Below are positions 1,596 to 14,344 of a stretch of DNA of 35,230 nucleotides, one piece after another. Made by a program: the position numbers and the translations under genes. Origin of the DNA: Deltaproteobacteria bacterium (lineage in GTDB: Bacteria; Desulfobacterota; Desulfomonilia; UBA1062); NCBI GenBank assembly GCA_011046135.1, contig DSBG01000004.1, positions 1-35,230 on the forward strand, written 5' to 3'. The notes beneath the pieces are model-generated. The model was given only the letters and a program-made list of their open reading frames with translations, was not told the DNA's origin and did not search any database. Positions within the stretch are counted from its first letter, which is position 1; each line of letters starts with the position of its first letter.

Positions 1596-4500
1596 TCAGA
1601 AAAAATCGATCTTCCACAACCCGTCTGAATCCATGATGAACCTCACGAGGAAAGAAGAACTCTCTCCACCCTGTTCAGCCCACATTTCATATTCGGCGAC
1701 CCCGTCCGAGACCCCGACCATCCGGATATCGCCCATCGAGGCAACGATATCGGGCAGGTGCTCCTGCATGAGCGTGAAGTTCTGCTCAAACATCTGCCTG
1801 GATCGGGGCGAGAAACACTCCATGGCCCCGGCAATCTCGGCACGATCAAGGTGTTCTTTCATGGCACGCCACTTTGCCTGGATGAGTTCATCGATATCGA
1901 ATGCGTTCAGAACGACCACACCGATGGTGTCGGTGTACACCTCGCCATCTATCACGTGTGCGGTGATGAAGTAGATACCCTCCTGCTCCATGGTAACATC
2001 ACACGTGTCACCATCTTCCTGCGCGTAGACTACCGGACCCGGACCGGAATCCGTGATCGTCAGACTTCCTTCAGGAAAGAGCGATTCGACCTTGAGCCGT
2101 GTCTGGAACACGGGGGTGCCCGATGATTCAAGGGTATCGAGGGTTATGTACGGCCGGTTGACGCCGGCCTGGATGGTGACGGAGGCCTCACCTGCTTCGC
2201 CTCCTGAACTCGACAGGAGCGCCGAGATGGTGTTCTGACCCGTTGTGAGGGGTACATGGTTCACCACGAAGCTGTTCCCAAAGACAAGGGCGGGTATTCC
2301 ATTGACCGTGACACCGAATTCTCCACACAATAAGTGGCGAACCCTGCCTGTGACCATGGTGTCCGGCCTCCAGATCGCGCTGCCCTCAACAGGAGAAGTA
2401 ATAGTGATCAGCGGCTCGACGACTTCCAGGGTCACGGATGCCTGCGTCGTTCCACCCGGCCCCTGGGCGGTCAGGGTATAGATGGTGCTGGTTCCGGGAG
2501 AAACCTCCGTGTTTCCACAGGTCGGCACAGAGCCCACTGAGGGGTCGATGCGGGCAAGGCGCGCATCCGTACAGGCCCAGGAAAGAAGACTTGCCTCCCC
2601 GGCATCGATGGTGGAAGGCTGCGCCGAGAACTCCACCACCGGAGGCTCAAAGACCGTGACCACGGCACTGCAGCTGATCGTGCCGCCAGGACCTGCCGCA
2701 GTGACGGTGTAGGTGGTTGTGGTATCCGGATACACCCACAGTGATCCACTGGGCTCCACCTGGCCGAGATCATGGTCGATGACCACGGAATCGGCAGCGG
2801 AGGATGACCAGGAGAGCACGGCGCCGCCACCGAGCGGTAGTTCCGGCGGGTCTGCAGAGATGGTGACAGCAGGCTTTTCAATGACGGTCACGGCAGCGGC
2901 TCTGGTGGCTGTGCCTCCGGGACCCGTGGCCGTAATGCAGTAGGTGAGGCTTGCTTCAGGATAGACCACCAGGGAACCGTTGAGGGGAACCGATCCGATC
3001 CCCTGATCGATGGAGAGGCTCTGGGCATGGGCAGAGGTCCACTCGAGCAGTGCCGAGTCCCCGCGGACAATGGTTTCCGGAACAATGGTGAACACAACGT
3101 CAGGGGGCTGAATCACGACAACGGCAGTGCTCGAGCTCACGCTCACCCCGGTCGGGTGCGTTGCTACAATCGTATAGTGTGATGTCTCTGTCGGCCAGAT
3201 CTCGAGATCGCCGGCGGGTCCGACATCTCCGATCCCGCTGTCGATGATTGCCTGGGAGGCATTGTATGTTGTCCAGGAAAGGAGCGTTGACGTACCAAGA
3301 TCGATGGCTGAAGGCTCAGCCGAGATGGTTACCGAGACGAGAACCTCCATGTCAGGGGCGTGAACATCACCACCTGAAGCGCTCACAGCCACTTCCTGTG
3401 GAGTAAACGCATACCCCTGCTTTTCTGCGGTGATGACATACTCCCCGGCAGGAACATGAAACAGGTAGATGCCCTGAGCATCGGTCAGGGTGATCCGCTG
3501 CATCGAGCCGTCGGAGAGAAAGACGCGCACTCCAGCACAGGGTTCTCCCCCGGAAAGCACGCGGCCCGAGATCCTGGAACTGCTCACCGCGATGAACGAT
3601 CCACAGGTAAAGGGCATGTCGAAGTCGCCGCCCACGACATGATCCGTGTCGCCGGTCGCCGCATCGATGAGATACACGGCATCTTCAAACAGCTCGGGCA
3701 CATAGAGCGTTTCCCCGCCGGGATCAAGGCAGAGGTCTGACATGCCGTATCCCATGGGAATCAGACGTTCCACGGTATCGGTGGCTGTATCGATCACCAC
3801 GATGTCGCCATCCTGACAGGTCACATAGGCTCGGCTGCCGTCGTGGCTTATGACAAGATACATGGGAAACGGGCTGATTTCAGGGATTCGAAAGATCTCG
3901 ATATCGTGCATGAGTGTGTGGTTCTGTGCATCGATCACCTTCACGGTGCCGTCATTGCCGGAGGTCACATAGGCCTTTGTCCCATCAGGCGTGATCTCGA
4001 TGTCCAGCGGTGTTGCCCAGAACACCAGCTCAATGGAATCAACAACCGTCATGGACGCACTGTCGATGACATCTACGGACGCATCGTCGAAGCACGCAAC
4101 ATACACCTTGGAATCATCCGGGCTGATCGCGAGCCCGTGAGCCCCTCTCCCCACGGACACAGACCCCATGGGGGCGAAATCCGAGGTGCTGAACTTTGTG
4201 ACAACGCTTTCCTGGAGGGACACGACATAGAGCACCGAGCCGTCCCGGCTCACGGCAAGGCAGAGAGCATCCACATCGAGGGATGCGATCACGCTGCGGG
4301 TGGCCGTGTCGATCACGGATACCGTGTGATCCCAGGAAGAAACATAGACCCGCCTCCCGTCGGGGCTCACTGCCACGCCATAGGGTTCGAACCCCACGGT
4401 GATCCGGTCCACCACGGTCCTGGTGGACAGATCGATGACCGAGACATCGTTCGAGGCATTGTTCGTGATGTAGGCGTGCGCACTGCCCTGCTGGAGCGGC

Positions 4501-6854
4501 TCATCGACCACCACGATGACGCTGTCACTCGCCGCTCCCCCGGGGCCTGTTGCCGTGGCCGTATAGGTGGTCGTTTCCGTCGGGCTCACGAGGAGTGAAC
4601 CCTCCAGGGCTACCTCGCCAAGAGCCTGATCGAGGACGACCGTGTCCGCATGCTCAGAAGTCCAGCTCAGGAAGGTGGCTTCTCCTGAAACAATGGGGTT
4701 TGGCTGGGCAGAAATGCCGACCCGGGGAGGAACGAGCACATCGATGCACACGCTGTCCGCGGCAGAGCCACCAGGGCCCTGCACAGAGATGGAGTACGTC
4801 GTGGACGACCCGGGAGCCACCTCGAGAGATCCTGTACAGGCAACCTCGCCTATACCCTGGTCGAGGGTTGCCGCATCGGCGTGTTCAGATTCCCAGCTCA
4901 GGGTGGATGTTTCTCCGGCAATGATGGGATTGGGGTGTGCTGAAAGTGTGACGGCAGGCACCTGAATCACAACGATCTCGGCGCTGTCTTCAGCCACACC
5001 CCCCTCTCCGCTGACCGATATGGTGTAGCGCGTTGTTTCCGGTGGCCACACCTGCACGGACCCGTTGGGAAGAACCTCGCCGATGCCGTGGTCGATGATG
5101 CCCGTTATTGCGTTGATGGAACTCCAGCGCAGGACAGCGCCTTGGCCGGCGATGATCTGTTCCGGCAGAGCATCAAGGGTGACGGAGGGAACCTGGCACA
5201 CCGCCACGGTTGCACTGCCTGACGCACTCCCACCCGGCCCCTGAGCGGTTATGGTATAGGTCGTGGTGATCTCCGGCGACACCAGGGTGTGGCCTGAAGG
5301 ATCCACCGTTCCGATTCCCTGGTCGATCACCAGGGAATCGGCATGGTACGACTCCCAGCTCAGACGTGCCTGCTGCCCTGAAACGATGCTGCCCGGCTCG
5401 GCGATCATCTGTACTGACGGAGGGTGGAGCACGGTAAGGGTTGCCTGATCAGCCACAATGCAATCCGGGCCTGCCCCGGTAATCGTGTACGTGGTGCTCT
5501 GCTGCGGCGACACCACCATGCTTCCCTGAGGTGCGACCACTCCGATGTCCTGGTCGATGGCAACGGGGTCGGCATCATGGGATTCCCAGGTCAACAGGGA
5601 TGATTCGCCTGCGATGATGACAGGAGGTTCCGCCGTGATGCTCACAATCGGTACAGGGCACACGATGAGCGTCGCTTCATCCGAAGCGGATCCTCCAGGC
5701 CCTGTTGCCAGCAGGGAATAGGTGGTGGTTGCGTCGGGACAGATCACGGTTGATCCCTCGCCGTTCGCATCCACGTTGCCCACCCCCGGTTCAATGATCA
5801 CGGTATCAGCGTTGGACGAGTTCCACACGAGCGTGGCACTGCTCCCCCGGGTGATGGTTACCGGGTGTACGGCAATTTCTGCGGTTGGTCCGGGCAAGAC
5901 CGGGGGAGACTGGCTGAGCGCCTCAACCGTGATGGTGAAGATCTGCGTGTCGGCGCCTCCTCTGCCATCGGAGATTCCGACAACACAATAAACGTCCCCG
6001 GATGTTTCGGGCACCCAGGAGATGCGACCGTCTTCCGGATCGATGTCCATGCCACCAGGGGCATCGACGAGGAGGTAGGTTATCGAATCGGTATTCGGGT
6101 CGGTGGCATTGACATCATAGGTGTACACAATGCCGGCAAATGCCCGGGTGATCGGCGGGGAGTAGATCCTCGGGTCGTAGTTCACCAGTGAGCGCGTGCG
6201 GACAGCCGTGGGGTGTGCGCTTGACACCTGCGAGTAGCACCACCCTCCCTGGCCGAGGGCACCCACGAGGTAGAGGTACGTGCACTCGTTTTCCGGGGGA
6301 TAGTCGAGGTACGAGGCATAGCTCGACGTTGTCTCCCCGATTTTCTCGAAGGTGAAGGGATCTGCCTCGTGGGCCCGGTATACATCATAGCGCCCGGTCC
6401 CCTCCAGGTGTGTCCAGGAAAGCTGGACCTTGTCGTTCTTTGCCCTGGCAACGAGGGGGAAGCAGGGCACTACCGAAACAACGGCTGTGTCCGGTTCGGA
6501 AACGCCTGACCCGCACCCTGCGATGAGGGAAACCGTGTAGTCTCCTTCGGGAATGGTTACCAGGGGAGATGCCCCGTGCATGTTCCCGAAGGGACCATAC
6601 CATGAATACTCGAGAACCTCCCCCGGACCAGGGGGAGTCGCCGATCCATGGAGAACTAGGCTGCTCCCCAGCGGGAGATTTTTCACCACGGCGACATCTT
6701 CACCTGCATCTGCCGTGGAAACGATCTCCTGAGCACTGGCACCGCTGGAGACCAGAAGACAGAACACGACAAACCAGATGAATCCCACCGAGGCGTTTAC
6801 CACCGATCTGCCCACTCCGGGCGCACAAGGAACATCCTTGGACGTGTTGTTCAT
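1596..6854 (-). CDS. Giant secreted multidomain protein: ten ~80-aa Ig-like repeats, YVTN-type beta-propeller, carboxypeptidase-regulatory-like domain, distinct C-terminal domain
   Basis: Repeats of type ...ISAEPxxIxxGExxLLSWxSxxADxVxIDQGIGxVxPxGSLxVxPxxTTTYTITAxGPGGxA...; propeller blades such as AYITNNASNDVSVIDLSTRTVVDRITVGFEPYGVAVSPDGRRVYV; start refined to MNNTSKDVP after GAGGAG. Confidence 0.9.
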   Translation of the reverse strand: MNNTSKDVPCAPGVGRSVVNASVGFIWFVVFCLLVSSGASAQEIVSTADAGEDVAVVKNLPLGSSLVLHGSATPPGPGEVLEYSWYGPFGNMHGASPLVTIPEGDYTVSLIAGCGSGVSEPDTAVVSVVPCFPLVARAKNDKVQLSWTHLEGTGRYDVYRAHEADPFTFEKIGETTSSYASYLDYPPENECTYLYLVGALGQGGWCYSQVSSAHPTAVRTRSLVNYDPRIYSPPITRAFAGIVYTYDVNATDPNTDSITYLLVDAPGGMDIDPEDGRISWVPETSGDVYCVVGISDGRGGADTQIFTITVEALSQSPPVLPGPTAEIAVHPVTITRGSSATLVWNSSNADTVIIEPGVGNVDANGEGSTVICPDATTTYSLLATGPGGSASDEATLIVCPVPIVSITAEPPVIIAGESSLLTWESHDADPVAIDQDIGVVAPQGSMVVSPQQSTTYTITGAGPDCIVADQATLTVLHPPSVQMIAEPGSIVSGQQARLSWESYHADSLVIDQGIGTVDPSGHTLVSPEITTTYTITAQGPGGSASGSATVAVCQVPSVTLDALPEQIIAGQGAVLRWSSINAITGIIDHGIGEVLPNGSVQVWPPETTRYTISVSGEGGVAEDSAEIVVIQVPAVTLSAHPNPIIAGETSTLSWESEHADAATLDQGIGEVACTGSLEVAPGSSTTYSISVQGPGGSAADSVCIDVLVPPRVGISAQPNPIVSGEATFLSWTSEHADTVVLDQALGEVALEGSLLVSPTETTTYTATATGPGGAASDSVIVVVDEPLQQGSAHAYITNNASNDVSVIDLSTRTVVDRITVGFEPYGVAVSPDGRRVYVSSWDHTVSVIDTATRSVIASLDVDALCLAVSRDGSVLYVVSLQESVVTKFSTSDFAPMGSVSVGRGAHGLAISPDDSKVYVACFDDASVDVIDSASMTVVDSIELVFWATPLDIEITPDGTKAYVTSGNDGTVKVIDAQNHTLMHDIEIFRIPEISPFPMYLVISHDGSRAYVTCQDGDIVVIDTATDTVERLIPMGYGMSDLCLDPGGETLYVPELFEDAVYLIDAATGDTDHVVGGDFDMPFTCGSFIAVSSSRISGRVLSGGEPCAGVRVFLSDGSMQRITLTDAQGIYLFHVPAGEYVITAEKQGYAFTPQEVAVSASGGDVHAPDMEVLVSVTISAEPSAIDLGTSTLLSWTTYNASQAIIDSGIGDVGPAGDLEIWPTETSHYTIVATHPTGVSVSSSTAVVVIQPPDVVFTIVPETIVRGDSALLEWTSAHAQSLSIDQGIGSVPLNGSLVVYPEASLTYCITATGPGGTATRAAAVTVIEKPAVTISADPPELPLGGGAVLSWSSSAADSVVIDHDLGQVEPSGSLWVYPDTTTTYTVTAAGPGGTISCSAVVTVFEPPVVEFSAQPSTIDAGEASLLSWACTDARLARIDPSVGSVPTCGNTEVSPGTSTIYTLTAQGPGGTTQASVTLEVVEPLITITSPVEGSAIWRPDTMVTGRVRHLLCGEFGVTVNGIPALVFGNSFVVNHVPLTTGQNTISALLSSSGGEAGEASVTIQAGVNRPYITLDTLESSGTPVFQTRLKVESLFPEGSLTITDSGPGPVVYAQEDGDTCDVTMEQEGIYFITAHVIDGEVYTDTIGVVVLNAFDIDELIQAKWRAMKEHLDRAEIAGAMECFSPRSRQMFEQNFTLMQEHLPDIVASMGDIRMVGVSDGVAEYEMWAEQGGESSSFLVRFIMDSDGLWKIDFF

Positions 6855-6986
6855 TGGAAAATCCTCCTCATTCTCGCTTCTTTGCTCAGCGAGGGTACAC
6901 CATAGCAATGCAATCAGTGTTTCTGTGTTCTGTTCATAATGGGTAACGAGTTCTCCGGAGATTTCAAGGGGGGAGCACACATTTTT

Positions 6987-9181: not shown

Positions 9182-9210
9182 TTGACAGGCGAACGTGAAT
9201 GTTCTATGGT
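9182..9210 (+). promoter_or_regulatory. Candidate sigma70 promoter of the MerR gene (TTGACA-N17-TATGGT)
   Basis: TTGACA 9182-9187, TATGGT 9205-9210. Confidence 0.6.
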
Positions 9211-9237
9211 AAGGTTATAGTTTCACTTCATGCTTAA
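9209..9237. promoter_or_regulatory. Candidate operator palindrome, site 1
   Basis: gTAAggTTAtAGTTtCACTtCAtgcTTAa; aligns with the sites at 11819-11847 and 14282-14312. Confidence 0.55.
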
Positions 9238-9252
9238 AAGGAGCGCCCCGGT

Positions 9253-9951
9253 ATGCGGCTGAAAATCGGTGAAATCGCGAAGAAGAGCGGGGTTCCCCCC
9301 TCCACCATCCGCTTCTATGTCCGGCAAGGCCTGCTTCCCGAGCCTGACAAGGTGAATAAAAGCATGGCATACTATGATGAGAGCTGCATCGAGAAGGTAC
9401 GAGCGATCAGGCATCTGCAGGAAAAGAAATACTTTCCCCTGGCCGTGATCAAGAACATCCTGAGGAGGATGGATCAGGGCCTCGGACTCGAAGAGGCGGA
9501 GGCCATCGAAAACGCGGTTTTCTGCCCGGAACCCGATCCGGCGGAGAACCTCGTGGACAAAGCTGAATTCCTCAAGCTCACCGGTCTTACCAAGACAGAG
9601 TACACCAGGGCCATGGATCTCGGCCTCCTGATGCCCTATTTCCAGGAAAAGGGGCGTACCCTCTTCAACCCGGAAGACATCCGGTTCGGTCGAGAAGTCC
9701 TCAAGAGGCTCATAGAATTCGGTCATGATCTCAACCTGCTGGACTTTTACGTGGAACTCGGCAGAAAAATTGTCGAACACGAGGTCCGGTTCAGGAAGGA
9801 GGCGGTCAAGGGGAAATCTCAGCAGGAGAACATCCGCATCACCACGGAGATTTCAAAGATGGCGGATTTCCTGAGGAGCTACATCATGAGGCGGCTTTTC
9901 CAGCGCAGGGTGCAGACCACGATCCAGAAAAGCCTCAAGGGCTCCTCCTGA
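9253..9951 (+). CDS. MerR family transcriptional regulator
   Basis: N-terminal MRLKIGEIAKKSGVPPSTIRFYVRQGLLPEPDKVNKSMAYYDE; SD AAAAGGAG. Confidence 0.93.
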   Translation: MRLKIGEIAKKSGVPPSTIRFYVRQGLLPEPDKVNKSMAYYDESCIEKVRAIRHLQEKKYFPLAVIKNILRRMDQGLGLEEAEAIENAVFCPEPDPAENLVDKAEFLKLTGLTKTEYTRAMDLGLLMPYFQEKGRTLFNPEDIRFGREVLKRLIEFGHDLNLLDFYVELGRKIVEHEVRFRKEAVKGKSQQENIRITTEISKMADFLRSYIMRRLFQRRVQTTIQKSLKGSS

Positions 9952-10349
9952 AGAGGGGCACCTGAGGGCAGTTTCTTTCCCCTGAACTGGGAAATACTTT
10001 TCCCGACTATCCGTTGTGTTCCGTGGGTCTTCCGGTAAGGTGCTGAATTTTCTCGGTGCGGATTCGTGCATGGATTTTGCTAGGGTTTCTCCGTCCTGTT
10101 CCGGCGTGACAACTACGGGCGTCGTGGATGAACAGATTGTTCATGAAATTCTGATCGTGATCGTGTATACTGAGTGCGATCCGACGAGGGGGCGATGCTA
10201 CAAAGACGGGGGAAGAACGCGGGAGCACCGCTTCTTTTTTTCGTTCTTCATGCATCCCTCGATGCGTTACGACACGGGCCCCAGGAATGCCGGACGTAGC
10301 CGGCACCTCCGTGCTTGAGGGACCATGGGTCCCCGGGGAGGACGTGAAC

Positions 10350-11552
10350 ATGAAACAGCTTTCTGGGCACAAGACGCTCACCACTACCCTGATCACGGCA
10401 CTCTTCCTGGTCGCTGCGCTGGGAATAGCCGGCTGCGACAGGGACCACGGTGGCCCCCCTCACAACGCCAAGGAAGGGTTTTTCATCGATGGGGCGTTGG
10501 CAGGCGTTGAGGGGATGGAGTATGTCACGGTGGTCTGGAGCGGGATCACGGACAGACATGGCAGGTTTTACTATCAGGAGGGCGAGAACATCACGTTTTC
10601 CATCGGCGATGTCGTTTTCGACCGCACCCGTGCCCGATCCATCCTCACCACGGTGGACATCGTGGGCGGGTCCGCAACATCGAAGCACCCGAGGGTGCTC
10701 AACATGTCGCGGCTCCTGCAGTCCCTGGATTACGACGGCGACCCCGCAAATGGCATCACCATCGAAGATTCCTTCAGGGGAGCCCTCTCAGGCATCAGCG
10801 TCGACTTCAGCGACCCGGACTTTGCCGATTCCCGGAACGTCAAATTTATCTTCGCCACGCTGAATTCGTTGGGGCTGTTTCCCGACGCGGAAGAACGGGG
10901 CCTCGTGTCGGCAGAAGAAGCCCAGATAAACCTTGAAGAGACGCTGGCCTACTTCGAGGAACTGAAAAGTCGCGAACCCGAGCCGGTTCCCTTTGCCGGG
11001 TGTATCCTCGCTCCGCTGGGTAACGTCGTCATGTTCGAGGGTCAGTCCATAAACTTTCAGGCCTCGGTATCCGGAGGTGAACCCCCGTATAACTACCAGT
11101 GGAAGTTAGGTGACGGGAAAACGTCCCTGGAAAAAGACCCGGGGTTTCTCAAATTTTCCCCGGGGACGCACACCGTGGAGTTCCTGGCACTCGATGGAGA
11201 AGGGGCAATGGCAAGCGACGTGAGGAAGGTGACGGTGCTCTTCCGCGAACTCGACCAGGGAGTTCCCTTTCCTGATCGACGGGATGAAACCGCCATCGTC
11301 TTCATCACCTCTCCTCCGAAAAACACGACTATCTCTGCAGGAGACAGGCTGAACCTGAAGGCAGAGATCAGCATGGGAAACCCTCCCTTCAGGTACTACT
11401 GGGTGATCGATGGACAGAGGAACTTCACCTATCTCCTGGACCAGAAAAACGTGGAATTTCCAACATCGGGAGAATACACCATCAGTATCTTCCTCAGGGA
11501 CACCAACGGGGATGACTGGGTGGATCGTGTCAAGGTCACGGTGACCGAGTAG
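10350..11552 (+). CDS. Lipoprotein with PKD-like domains
   Basis: Lipobox AALGIAGC; PKD-like GGEPPYNYQWKLGDGKTSLEKDPGFLKFSPGTHTVEFLALDGEGA and a second similar segment; start refined to MKQLSG after GGGGAGG. Confidence 0.8.
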   Translation: MKQLSGHKTLTTTLITALFLVAALGIAGCDRDHGGPPHNAKEGFFIDGALAGVEGMEYVTVVWSGITDRHGRFYYQEGENITFSIGDVVFDRTRARSILTTVDIVGGSATSKHPRVLNMSRLLQSLDYDGDPANGITIEDSFRGALSGISVDFSDPDFADSRNVKFIFATLNSLGLFPDAEERGLVSAEEAQINLEETLAYFEELKSREPEPVPFAGCILAPLGNVVMFEGQSINFQASVSGGEPPYNYQWKLGDGKTSLEKDPGFLKFSPGTHTVEFLALDGEGAMASDVRKVTVLFRELDQGVPFPDRRDETAIVFITSPPKNTTISAGDRLNLKAEISMGNPPFRYYWVIDGQRNFTYLLDQKNVEFPTSGEYTISIFLRDTNGDDWVDRVKVTVTE

Positions 11553-11555
11553 CGG

Positions 11556-11711
11556 GAGAGTTGAGACAGTGCCGTGGAACGCATACCGGACCGCTCCTTG
11601 CAGAGTATTTCCAAGAGAGGTGATCATGGCCACGGCGGTACGCATCCGGGGCAGCTCCCTACAGAGTACTACCAAGAGAGGTGATCATGGCCACGGCGGT
11701 ACGCATCCCGG
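11556..11711. repeat. 61-bp direct repeat, two good copies plus a degenerate upstream copy
   Basis: CCAAGAGAGGTGATCATGGCCACGGCGGTACGCATCC starts at 11611 and, 61 bp later, at 11672. Confidence 0.85.
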
Positions 11712-11793
11712 GTCGTTCTTCCGGGAGGCACTCGTGCATGACCGCGGTTTCCCGTGGTGCAGGGACAACCGGGTTTCAGCGGGTTAATATTTC

Positions 11794-11822
11794 TTGACAA
11801 GAAAACAAGTGTTTTTTATAAA
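11794..11822 (+). promoter_or_regulatory. Near-consensus sigma70 promoter TTGACA-N17-TATAAA upstream of NMO paralog 1
   Basis: TTGACA 11794-11799; TATAAA 11817-11822. Confidence 0.75.
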
Positions 11823-11847
11823 CCTTATAGTTTAACTTTAATCTTTA
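11819..11847. promoter_or_regulatory. Candidate operator palindrome, site 2
   Basis: TAAAccTTAtAGTTtAACTtTAAtcTTTA, symmetric about 11833. Confidence 0.65.
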
Positions 11848-11905
11848 ATTTTGGTTCGGGCGGCAGCGTTGAAAGTGCTCTCCCATATCCGAAAAGGAGT
11901 CATGT

Positions 11906-13117
11906 ATGAAGACACGCATTACCGAGCTCTTTGGCATTCAGCACCCCATAATCCTTCCCGGCATGAGCTGGATCAGCACACCGAAGATGGTTGCAGCAGT
12001 CTCCAGTGCCGGAGGGCTGGGCATCCTCGCTACCGGGCCACTCGATGCCGAGCAGACCAGGGCTGCCATCAGGGAGATCCGATCGCTCACCGACAAGCCC
12101 TTTGGCGTGAACGCATCGCTCCTCTTTCCCGGGGCAGCGGAGAATGCCAAGGTGGCGCTGGAGGAAAAGGTGCCGGTGATCAATTTCTCGCTCGGCAAGG
12201 GTGACTGGATCGTGAAGGCAGCCCATGCATACGGCGGAAAGGTCGTGGCCACCGTGGTGAACTACCGGCACGCCAAGAGGGCACAGGACTACGGCTGCGA
12301 TGCCGTGCAGGTGACCGGCCACGAGGCTGCTGCCCATGGCGGAGACGCGACCACGTTCTGTCTCGTCCCGAGCCTGGCGAGCAAACTGAACATCCCCATT
12401 ATCGTGGCCGGCGGCGTTGCGGACGGCAGGGGTCTCGCCGGAGCAATCGCCCTGGGTGCGGACGCGGCCGCCATGGGAACCAGGCTCATGTCCACCAAGG
12501 AGAGCCCACTCCACGACAACTTCAAGAAGCTCTCCGTGGAAAAAGATATCTACGACACGGTCTATTCCACCCGTTTCGACGGACTCGGGTGCAGAGTGCT
12601 CAATACGTCTGCGGCCCGGGATGCCATCAGACAGGGGCTCAACCTGAGGAAAATGCTGGAGGCCCTGCCGAATTCGATGGAAATTTCCAAACAGCTCCAC
12701 CTCCCCTACATCAAGCTCTTCATCGGGGTGCTCCTCTCCGGGTGGAAGAACGCCAGGCAGCTCGCCTTCATGGCAAACGCGTTCAAATCCATTCGCGCGG
12801 CCACTGAAGACGGTGACGTCTCCAGGGGTGTCCTCACGGTGGGTCAGGCAACCGGTCTCATCCACGACATCCCCACGGTGGCAGAACTCATCGATCGGAC
12901 CGTCACGGATGCCGAGACCATCATGAAAGACCTTACCAGAATGGTGGACGGCAGGAAGTCGCTGACCCCGAAGAAAGAAGTGAAAAAAGCCGCGGGAAGA
13001 CCGAAGAAGACGGCAAAACCTGCAGATCAGACCGCCACTGCACCGAAGAAAAAGGACGTGACACAGAAAGAAAAACCTTCAAGGAAGAGAGGCAGGAAGA
13101 AAGTCGAAAAGAGCTGA
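11906..13117 (+). CDS. Nitronate monooxygenase / 2-nitropropane dioxygenase family protein with Lys-rich C-terminal tail
   Basis: TIM-barrel NMO pattern: GIQHPIILPGMSWISTPKMVAAVSSAGGLGILATG, VTGHEAAAHGG, PIIVAGGVADGRGLAGAIALGADAAAMGTRL. Confidence 0.92.
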   Translation: MKTRITELFGIQHPIILPGMSWISTPKMVAAVSSAGGLGILATGPLDAEQTRAAIREIRSLTDKPFGVNASLLFPGAAENAKVALEEKVPVINFSLGKGDWIVKAAHAYGGKVVATVVNYRHAKRAQDYGCDAVQVTGHEAAAHGGDATTFCLVPSLASKLNIPIIVAGGVADGRGLAGAIALGADAAAMGTRLMSTKESPLHDNFKKLSVEKDIYDTVYSTRFDGLGCRVLNTSAARDAIRQGLNLRKMLEALPNSMEISKQLHLPYIKLFIGVLLSGWKNARQLAFMANAFKSIRAATEDGDVSRGVLTVGQATGLIHDIPTVAELIDRTVTDAETIMKDLTRMVDGRKSLTPKKEVKKAAGRPKKTAKPADQTATAPKKKDVTQKEKPSRKRGRKKVEKS

Positions 13118-13145
13118 AAAACAACGCACCAGATCAAGAACAAAC

Positions 13146-13183
13146 AAGAGCGGTTGCATCGCGAATGCGGTGCAACCGCTCTT
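13146..13183. terminator. Hairpin terminator between convergent genes
   Basis: Perfect 13-bp inverted repeat AAGAGCGGTTGCA / TGCAACCGCTCTT with 12-nt loop, short T run on the plus strand. Confidence 0.8.
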
Positions 13184-13184
13184 T

Positions 13185-13240
13185 TCATGTCATGGCTGTT
13201 CGTGTACCGATCTCATGTCACGATGGTTCGTGTGCCGGCA
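13185..13240. repeat. Short degenerate 28-bp tandem duplication
   Basis: TCATGTCATGGCTGTTCGTGTACC (13185) vs TCATGTCACGATGGTTCGTGTGCC (13213). Confidence 0.5.
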
Positions 13241-13267
13241 TTGACGACACGTGACGGCGAGGCCATA

Positions 13268-14257
13268 CTAGTGAATGAGACTGCTTGCCTTTTTCAGGTG
13301 AGCGAGCGCGTCGTCGTGCATCTTTTCCAGGAGATCTCTGACACCCACTATTTCATGGATGTGGCCGATGGACTGACCGACCATGAGGGGTGCATCATCC
13401 ACGCTTCCATCCTCCCAGGCATTCTTGATCCGCTGGCCGGCGATCATGGGGATAATGGCCTCGATCCCCTCACCTTTCTGTTCCGCCTCAAGCACCTCAC
13501 AGATGATCCTGTTCTTCAGGGCCCTCCCCTGAAGACCCAGCGTCTTGCAGATCATGGTCGTGTCGTTTTCGTGTCTGTCGATGAGTTCCTGCTTGATCTT
13601 CTCGTGGACATCGCACTCCCTGGTGGCAATGAACCTGCTCGCCATCATGACGCCCTGGGCCCCGAGGGTCAGCGCAGCAGCGAGGGACCTGCCGTCGGCG
13701 ATCCCTCCCACGGTCACCACAGGGATCTTCACGGAATCCACGATCCTGGGTGTGAGCACCATGGTGGTGACATCGTCATCGAGGGGGTGGCCGCCCTCTT
13801 CAAACCCCGCAGCATAGATGCCGTCGTACCCGACTTTTTCCGCGTGCACGGCATGACGAACGGAACCGACCTTGTGAAAGAGCTTCACCCCGGCATTCTT
13901 CAGCGCTTCCAGGTTCTTCATGCCCAGCGCCTTGTCCAGGGGGCTGCCCGAAACCTCGATGCCGGAGACACGCTCTTCTGCGCAGACGCGCACGTACATT
14001 TCATGATGCTCTTTGGTGATGCGCACCGAGGGCAGGATCGTAATGCCCACCATGAAGGGCTTGTCCGTCAGCTTCCTGACCTCCCTGATGGCGTTCCTGA
14101 ACTCGTCTTCCGTCTCATAGTTGCCGGCGGTCAGATTCCCCAGTGCCCCTGCATTGGAAATCGCGGCACACAACTCCGGTTTGCAGAGCCACATCATGGC
14201 GCCGCAGATCACGGGATACTCGATACCAAACATCTCGGTGATGGCTGTCTTGATCAT
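13268..14257 (-). CDS. Nitronate monooxygenase family protein (paralog 2)
   Basis: MFGIEYPVICGAMMWLCKPELCAAISNAGALGNLTAGNY, GFEEGGHPLDDD, PVVTVGGIADGRSLAAALTLGAQGVMMASRF. Confidence 0.93.
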   Translation of the reverse strand: MIKTAITEMFGIEYPVICGAMMWLCKPELCAAISNAGALGNLTAGNYETEDEFRNAIREVRKLTDKPFMVGITILPSVRITKEHHEMYVRVCAEERVSGIEVSGSPLDKALGMKNLEALKNAGVKLFHKVGSVRHAVHAEKVGYDGIYAAGFEEGGHPLDDDVTTMVLTPRIVDSVKIPVVTVGGIADGRSLAAALTLGAQGVMMASRFIATRECDVHEKIKQELIDRHENDTTMICKTLGLQGRALKNRIICEVLEAEQKGEGIEAIIPMIAGQRIKNAWEDGSVDDAPLMVGQSIGHIHEIVGVRDLLEKMHDDALAHLKKASSLIH

Positions 14258-14281
14258 GTCTTCCTCCCCCTGTCCGTTTCA

Positions 14282-14312
14282 GTAAAGTTTAAAGTTGAAC
14301 TTAATACTTTAC
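14282..14312. promoter_or_regulatory. Candidate operator palindrome, site 3 (best symmetry)
   Basis: GTAAAGTtTAAAGTTgAACTTaATACTTTAC, 31 bp, symmetric about 14297. Confidence 0.7.
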
Positions 14313-14315
14313 AAC

Positions 14316-14344
14316 TGCCTACCCTGCTCCCGGTTTTCTGTCAA
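14316..14344 (-). promoter_or_regulatory. Candidate promoter of NMO paralog 2 (TTGACA-N17-TAGGCA)
   Basis: Minus-strand TTGACA at 14344-14339, weak -10 TAGGCA at 14321-14316. Confidence 0.45.

Follow-up and report, generated by a model that had tools for sequence, protein, structure and literature searches.

The locus raises a simple question: what is the role of a sequence that recurs at the promoters of a MerR-family regulator gene and of two flavin enzyme genes, and which protein reads it? The window, that is the whole stretch of DNA analysed, comprises positions 1-35,230 of contig DSBG01000004.1, from the 2.92 Mb genome of an uncultured Syntrophales-type bacterium. The MerR-family protein very probably acts here through a common palindromic site, by which it regulates its own gene together with those of three flavin enzymes. 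We consider it highly likely, from comparative evidence, that the sites are operators of MerR (9253-9951), which would act as an autorepressor and as a repressor of NMO1, NMO2 and a gene resembling old yellow enzyme (OYE)/2,4-dienoyl-CoA reductase located elsewhere in the genome. The regulon of merR and both NMO genes predicted by the initial annotation is thereby supported and proves larger than proposed, since the OYE gene joins it and, in relatives, a PDS/FNR gene pair. The features that the argument needs are the following.

9182..9210, plus strand: merR promoter, TTGACA, 17-bp spacer, TATGGT (from sequence; a TTGACA-N17/18-TATA layout is kept 5' of merR in relatives).
9210-9237, plus strand: operator 1, predicted to serve autoregulation, with GTTATAGTTTCACTTCATGCTTAA as its core and the AAAAGGAG ribosome-binding site after it (model R1, E=2.2e-6).
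9253..9951, plus strand: merR, 232 aa (Pfam MerR_1, E=4.9e-19; AlphaFold; Foldseek).
11794..11822, plus strand: NMO1 promoter, TTGACA, 17-bp spacer, TATAAA (from sequence).
11818-11847, plus strand: operator 2, predicted for NMO1, an 11/14 palindrome over the -10 (pattern, symmetry and profile; also 5' of NMO1 in relatives).
11906..13117, plus strand: NMO1, FMN-dependent NMO/FabK-like oxidoreductase with a lysine-rich C-terminal tail (Pfam NMO, E=6.3e-58).
13268..14257, minus strand: NMO2, FMN-dependent NMO/FabK-like oxidoreductase (Pfam NMO, E=5.7e-57).
14282..14312, minus strand: operator 3, predicted for NMO2, a 12/14 palindrome (pattern, symmetry and profile; also 5' of NMO2 in relatives).
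14316..14344, minus strand: NMO2 promoter, TTGACA (at 14344), 17-bp spacer, TAGGCA, a weak -10 (from sequence).

All three sequences initially annotated as copies of one palindrome are present, and each sits, as had been proposed, at a TTGACA-N17-(-10) promoter, overlapping the -10 or lying just 3' of the promoter; the word palindrome, however, overstates the first of them. When palindromy is scored as complementary pairs among 14 positions per side, over about 70,000 centres in the window, the NMO2 site has 12 pairs, the NMO1 site 11 and the merR site 8, against a background in which 7 centres reach at least 11 pairs and 791 score exactly 8. The two NMO sites are strong palindromes and the symmetry of the merR site is unexceptional. 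What ties the merR site to the others is shared sequence and strong conservation in relatives, not symmetry. Read in gene direction, the sites have CTTAWAGTTnAACTTYAWnCTTWA in common, from which single sites depart slightly (alignment A1), CTTATAGTTTaACTTcATGCTTAA is conserved 5' of merR orthologues, and the fullest form of the roughly 30-bp palindrome is ATAAAGCTTAAAGTTnAACTTTAAGCTTTAT.

The genome was scanned by pattern and by profile searches. A 23-bp pattern gives four matches in the window, namely the two NMO sites on both strands, with 0 expected from shuffles. Searched over the 2.92 Mb genome with up to 3 mismatches allowed, a 22-bp pattern matches only both NMO sites and one further place, and its reversed control finds nothing in the whole genome. 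Profile R1, built from 13 sites (those of the genome itself and merR sites of relatives), recovers all three sites of the window and, as a fourth, that further place, which lies on another contig (C111, locus L007) just 5' of the OYE/2,4-dienoyl-CoA-reductase-like gene. The sites are far beyond chance. Random or unrelated positions had been named in advance as the outcome that would speak against the regulon; the scan returns four places only, all at promoters of MerR or of flavin oxidoreductases. Several other NMO-family genes exist in the genome, and the two in the window are the only ones to carry the site.

The sites also recur upstream of merR, NMO1 and NMO2 in relatives, as the regulon predicted. 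Each of the 21 genomes of the same family has a profile R1 match at E<=1 (best family match 4.5e-7), and in most of them several strong matches line up across the syntenic merR-NMO1-NMO2 region, with others lying at a distance. Maps of open reading frames for 35 regions place the distant sites 5' of OYE, of a gene resembling phytoene desaturase ('PDS', Pfam amine oxidoreductase), which has a flavin/2Fe-2S reductase gene ('FNR') 3' of it, and of a gene of ferredoxin type; the genome of the window has no clear PDS orthologue. A systematic upstream comparison in the relatives finds high-scoring sites 5' of merR, NMO1, NMO2, OYE (7/7) and PDS (6/8), while the site is absent 5' of the control genes RfaE and M48 in these genomes, where weight-matrix scores never rise above 7.1. 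Training of the profile included the merR sites of relatives, so that their NMO, OYE and PDS sites are the independent tests. Elsewhere in the phylum, 21 genomes that lack a clear MerR orthologue give no profile match stronger than E=0.166, which is chance level. Two observations count against this pattern: a few merR genes (L118, L119, L120 and L076) have a degenerate or unrecognisable site at their own promoter, and one genome, G020 (91% complete), keeps one site, 5' of a PDS-like gene (L088), with no MerR orthologue found. Sequence comparison demonstrates that the sites exist, that they are specific and conserved, and that they are linked to merR; from this we infer that MerR binds the sites directly and represses. 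At the fourth site itself, a ferredoxin-domain gene (L007, 1486-2523) diverges from the OYE gene across the site. It is about 28% identical to the site-bearing ferredoxin-type gene of a relative (L079) and may belong to the regulon.

What kind of protein would act at these sites? An AlphaFold model of MerR (mean pLDDT 87.7) shows a MerR winged helix-turn-helix at the N-terminus (1-75), then a second, winged-helix-like domain (about 100-170), with a long helix at the C-terminus. Its assignment to the MerR-family winged helix-turn-helix proteins rests on Pfam MerR_1 at 68.6 bits (cut-off 21.6) and MerR at 45.8 bits (cut-off 28.2), and all 38 aligned members have a Pfam MerR-domain match. Among the metal-sensor MerR subfamilies there is no match above cut-off. 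The nearest architectural relative appears to be Rv1828/FtsR of Actinobacteria, which likewise has an N-terminal MerR domain and a similar length: Foldseek aligns the C-terminal half with the Rv1828 C-terminal domain (5ydd_B, E=0.02, probability 1.00, 123 aligned columns, TM 0.68 on the target, rmsd 4.1, 13% identity), and the FtsR model of NCBIfam (NF050798) matches weakly over most of the length, at 51.2 bits, below its equivalog cut-off of 150. FtsR binds an inverted repeat as a dimer and activates ftsZ (PMC6683498). It differs in being an activator, in its target and in its operator; the targets here are flavin enzymes. Two further ideas were set aside. A likeness to the regulatory domain of Rv1264 (TM about 0.42-0.44) is too weak for ligand inference, and a Pfam scan gives it no support. 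We also do not claim that each monomer carries two helix-turn-helix domains reading four TAAAGYT half-sites, because profile comparison finds no sequence similarity between the two domains, and a single MerR domain plus its wing would suffice for each arm.

Does this protein repress or activate? The best structural matches of the N-terminal part are classical MerR, CueR, CadR, PbrR691, SoxR and BmrR, which have the same DNA-binding domain and a palindromic promoter operator. In the classical activators the operator lies between -35 and -10, with a spacer of 19-20 bp (PMC9909328), whereas nearly all target promoters here have a spacer of 16-18 bp and an operator that lies over the -10 and extends downstream of it; the classical layout is not found at them. 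The position of the operator together with a normal 17-bp spacer therefore indicates repression rather than classical MerR activation, and steric blocking relieved by a ligand is most likely the mode of action. A dimer would bind the roughly 30-bp palindrome spanning the -10 and the start region; RNA polymerase would be blocked because the operator covers both, and a ligand bound at the C-terminal domain would free the repressor and turn the enzymes on. That the protein is instead a classical activator, remodelling its promoters upon ligand binding, is suggested by the fact that most characterised MerR proteins activate, as does FtsR with its similar architecture (PMC6683498). Given the promoter spacing (PMC9909328) and the operators lying over or downstream of the -10, we regard activation as unlikely.

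Sites do not by themselves identify the protein that binds them, and another transcription factor could bind these sites with merR as merely one of its targets; the genome G020, with its site and no MerR orthologue found, fits such a view. Gene order gives the strongest argument that MerR is the probable binder. Smithella-type and other Syntrophales genomes keep merR, NMO2 and NMO1 together in one apparent operon, whose single palindrome sits at the head, directly 3' of merR's TTGACA-N17-TATA promoter, and the NMO genes inside these operons have, as expected, no site of their own. Distant merR paralogues lie in NMO1-merR operons and in one merR-PDS-FNR operon, most of them headed by a palindrome, which is perfect in one of the NMO1-merR operons. 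It follows from these operon orders that the genes with separate operators in the window's family are the neighbours of merR elsewhere. The operators themselves point in the same direction. Their inner AAAGT/ACTTT is constant, as the recognition-helix region of MerR is nearly invariant, and the outer arms are of GCTT type in the window's clade and of ATGTT type in the Smithella clade. Placed on the MerR tree, the outer-arm type requires 3 changes, compared with 12.5 when labels are shuffled, and the residues separating the operator types include, in the DNA-binding domain, residue 25 and residues 36-37 of the wing; with few independent changes, this covariation is suggestive only. Since the sites track merR across genomes, the operator type tracks MerR phylogeny and merR elsewhere shares one operon with the same target genes behind one site, control by another factor is quite improbable. 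At loci L129, L141 and L142, genomes of the window's family carry second MerR paralogues, 49-53% identical and each in an NMO1-merR operon, of which at least two have a head palindrome of another type.

One may further ask whether a protein is needed at all: in merR and OYE the motif lies at the transcript start near the ribosome-binding site, and it might be an RNA structure or an AT-rich element of the leader or promoter. We hold this to be very improbable, as the site lies at distances between 22 and about 83 bp from the start codon, its symmetry is retained in several target classes, the motif is missing from genomes without MerR, and control genes in the same genomes lack it. Chance likeness of the three sites in an AT-rich intergenic background, to which the weak symmetry of site 1 (8/14) might speak, has a negligible probability in view of the zero matches in shuffles and reversed control and is refuted by the deep conservation of the sites. 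The preferred reading, a MerR-family repressor with an autoregulatory site and a few flavin enzyme genes, describes a system that is well conserved but conventional. We found no earlier description of this regulon in the open-access literature, which does not prove that there is none.

What, then, do the target enzymes do? Both window enzymes belong to the NMO/2-nitropropane dioxygenase family (Pfam NMO, 197 and 194 bits, cut-off 28). The best solved-structure matches are FabK-type enoyl reductases for NMO1 and PA1024 for NMO2; against the FabK enoyl-ACP reductase model TIGR03151 both score 241 bits, below the equivalog cut-off of 453.1. Related lineages are thought to be anaerobic, and the name nitronate monooxygenase is for this reason doubtful. 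The OYE gene of the window's own genome is cut by the contig end; full-length counterparts in relatives match 2,4-dienoyl-CoA reductase (1ps9, E=1.4e-120) and NCR (6qkg, E=9e-108), which we take to be 2-naphthoyl-CoA reductase. The OYE target of the relatives thus resembles FadH (2,4-dienoyl-CoA reductase) and NCR. The tail of NMO1 (12950-13117) is lysine-rich, with the AT-hook-like stretches AGRPKK and KRGRKK, which is unusual for an FMN enzyme.

The possible Rv1828 likeness of the C-terminal part, together with a dienoyl-CoA-reductase-like target, makes a lipid or acyl-CoA ligand plausible, and by analogy we infer that the ligand is perhaps a fatty-acid or acyl-CoA-like molecule. MerR-family regulators of fatty acid and branched-chain catabolism, such as LiuR, are known in Proteobacteria as regulators of acyl-CoA metabolism. 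They may offer a parallel to the present protein, as a lead only; a search of the open-access literature turned up no paper on regulators of this type. Fatty acids are listed as the signal of Rv1828 in a review (PMC9909328). Of the conjectural ligands named in the initial annotation (lipids, acyl-CoA or nitronate-like compounds), those resembling fatty acids gain weak support from this likeness to Rv1828. It is possible, and we propose it only tentatively, that the protein represents a previously undescribed lipid-responsive MerR repressor over the oxygen-independent flavin ene-reductases (NMO-type and OYE-type, with desaturase-like enzymes in relatives) of Syntrophales-type bacteria. If so, the 'nitronate monooxygenases' of these anaerobes would belong to unsaturated acyl-CoA or lipid metabolism, not to nitronate oxidation. 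The regulon links genes so named with dienoyl-CoA-reductase-like enzymes, and such co-regulation hints at what the NMO family really does in anaerobes; the interesting part of the system lies in its substrate and ligand. For a syntrophic group known mostly from metagenome-assembled genomes and with few described transcription factors, it offers a specific and testable set of regulator, operator and targets.

Some neighbouring features of the window are recorded here. Between merR and NMO1 lies a PKD/Ig-domain gene (10287-11552), and many relatives have genes with similar domains at this position, without an operator of their own. Between this gene and the NMO1 promoter, at 11560-11710, we find a tandem pair of near-identical copies of roughly 60 bp (...CCAAGAGAGGTGATCATGGCCACGGCGGTACGCATCC...). 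On the minus strand, at 1596-6980, an open frame of 1794 aa contains, as judged by eye only, PKD-like repeats together with a stretch resembling a beta-propeller (YVTN).
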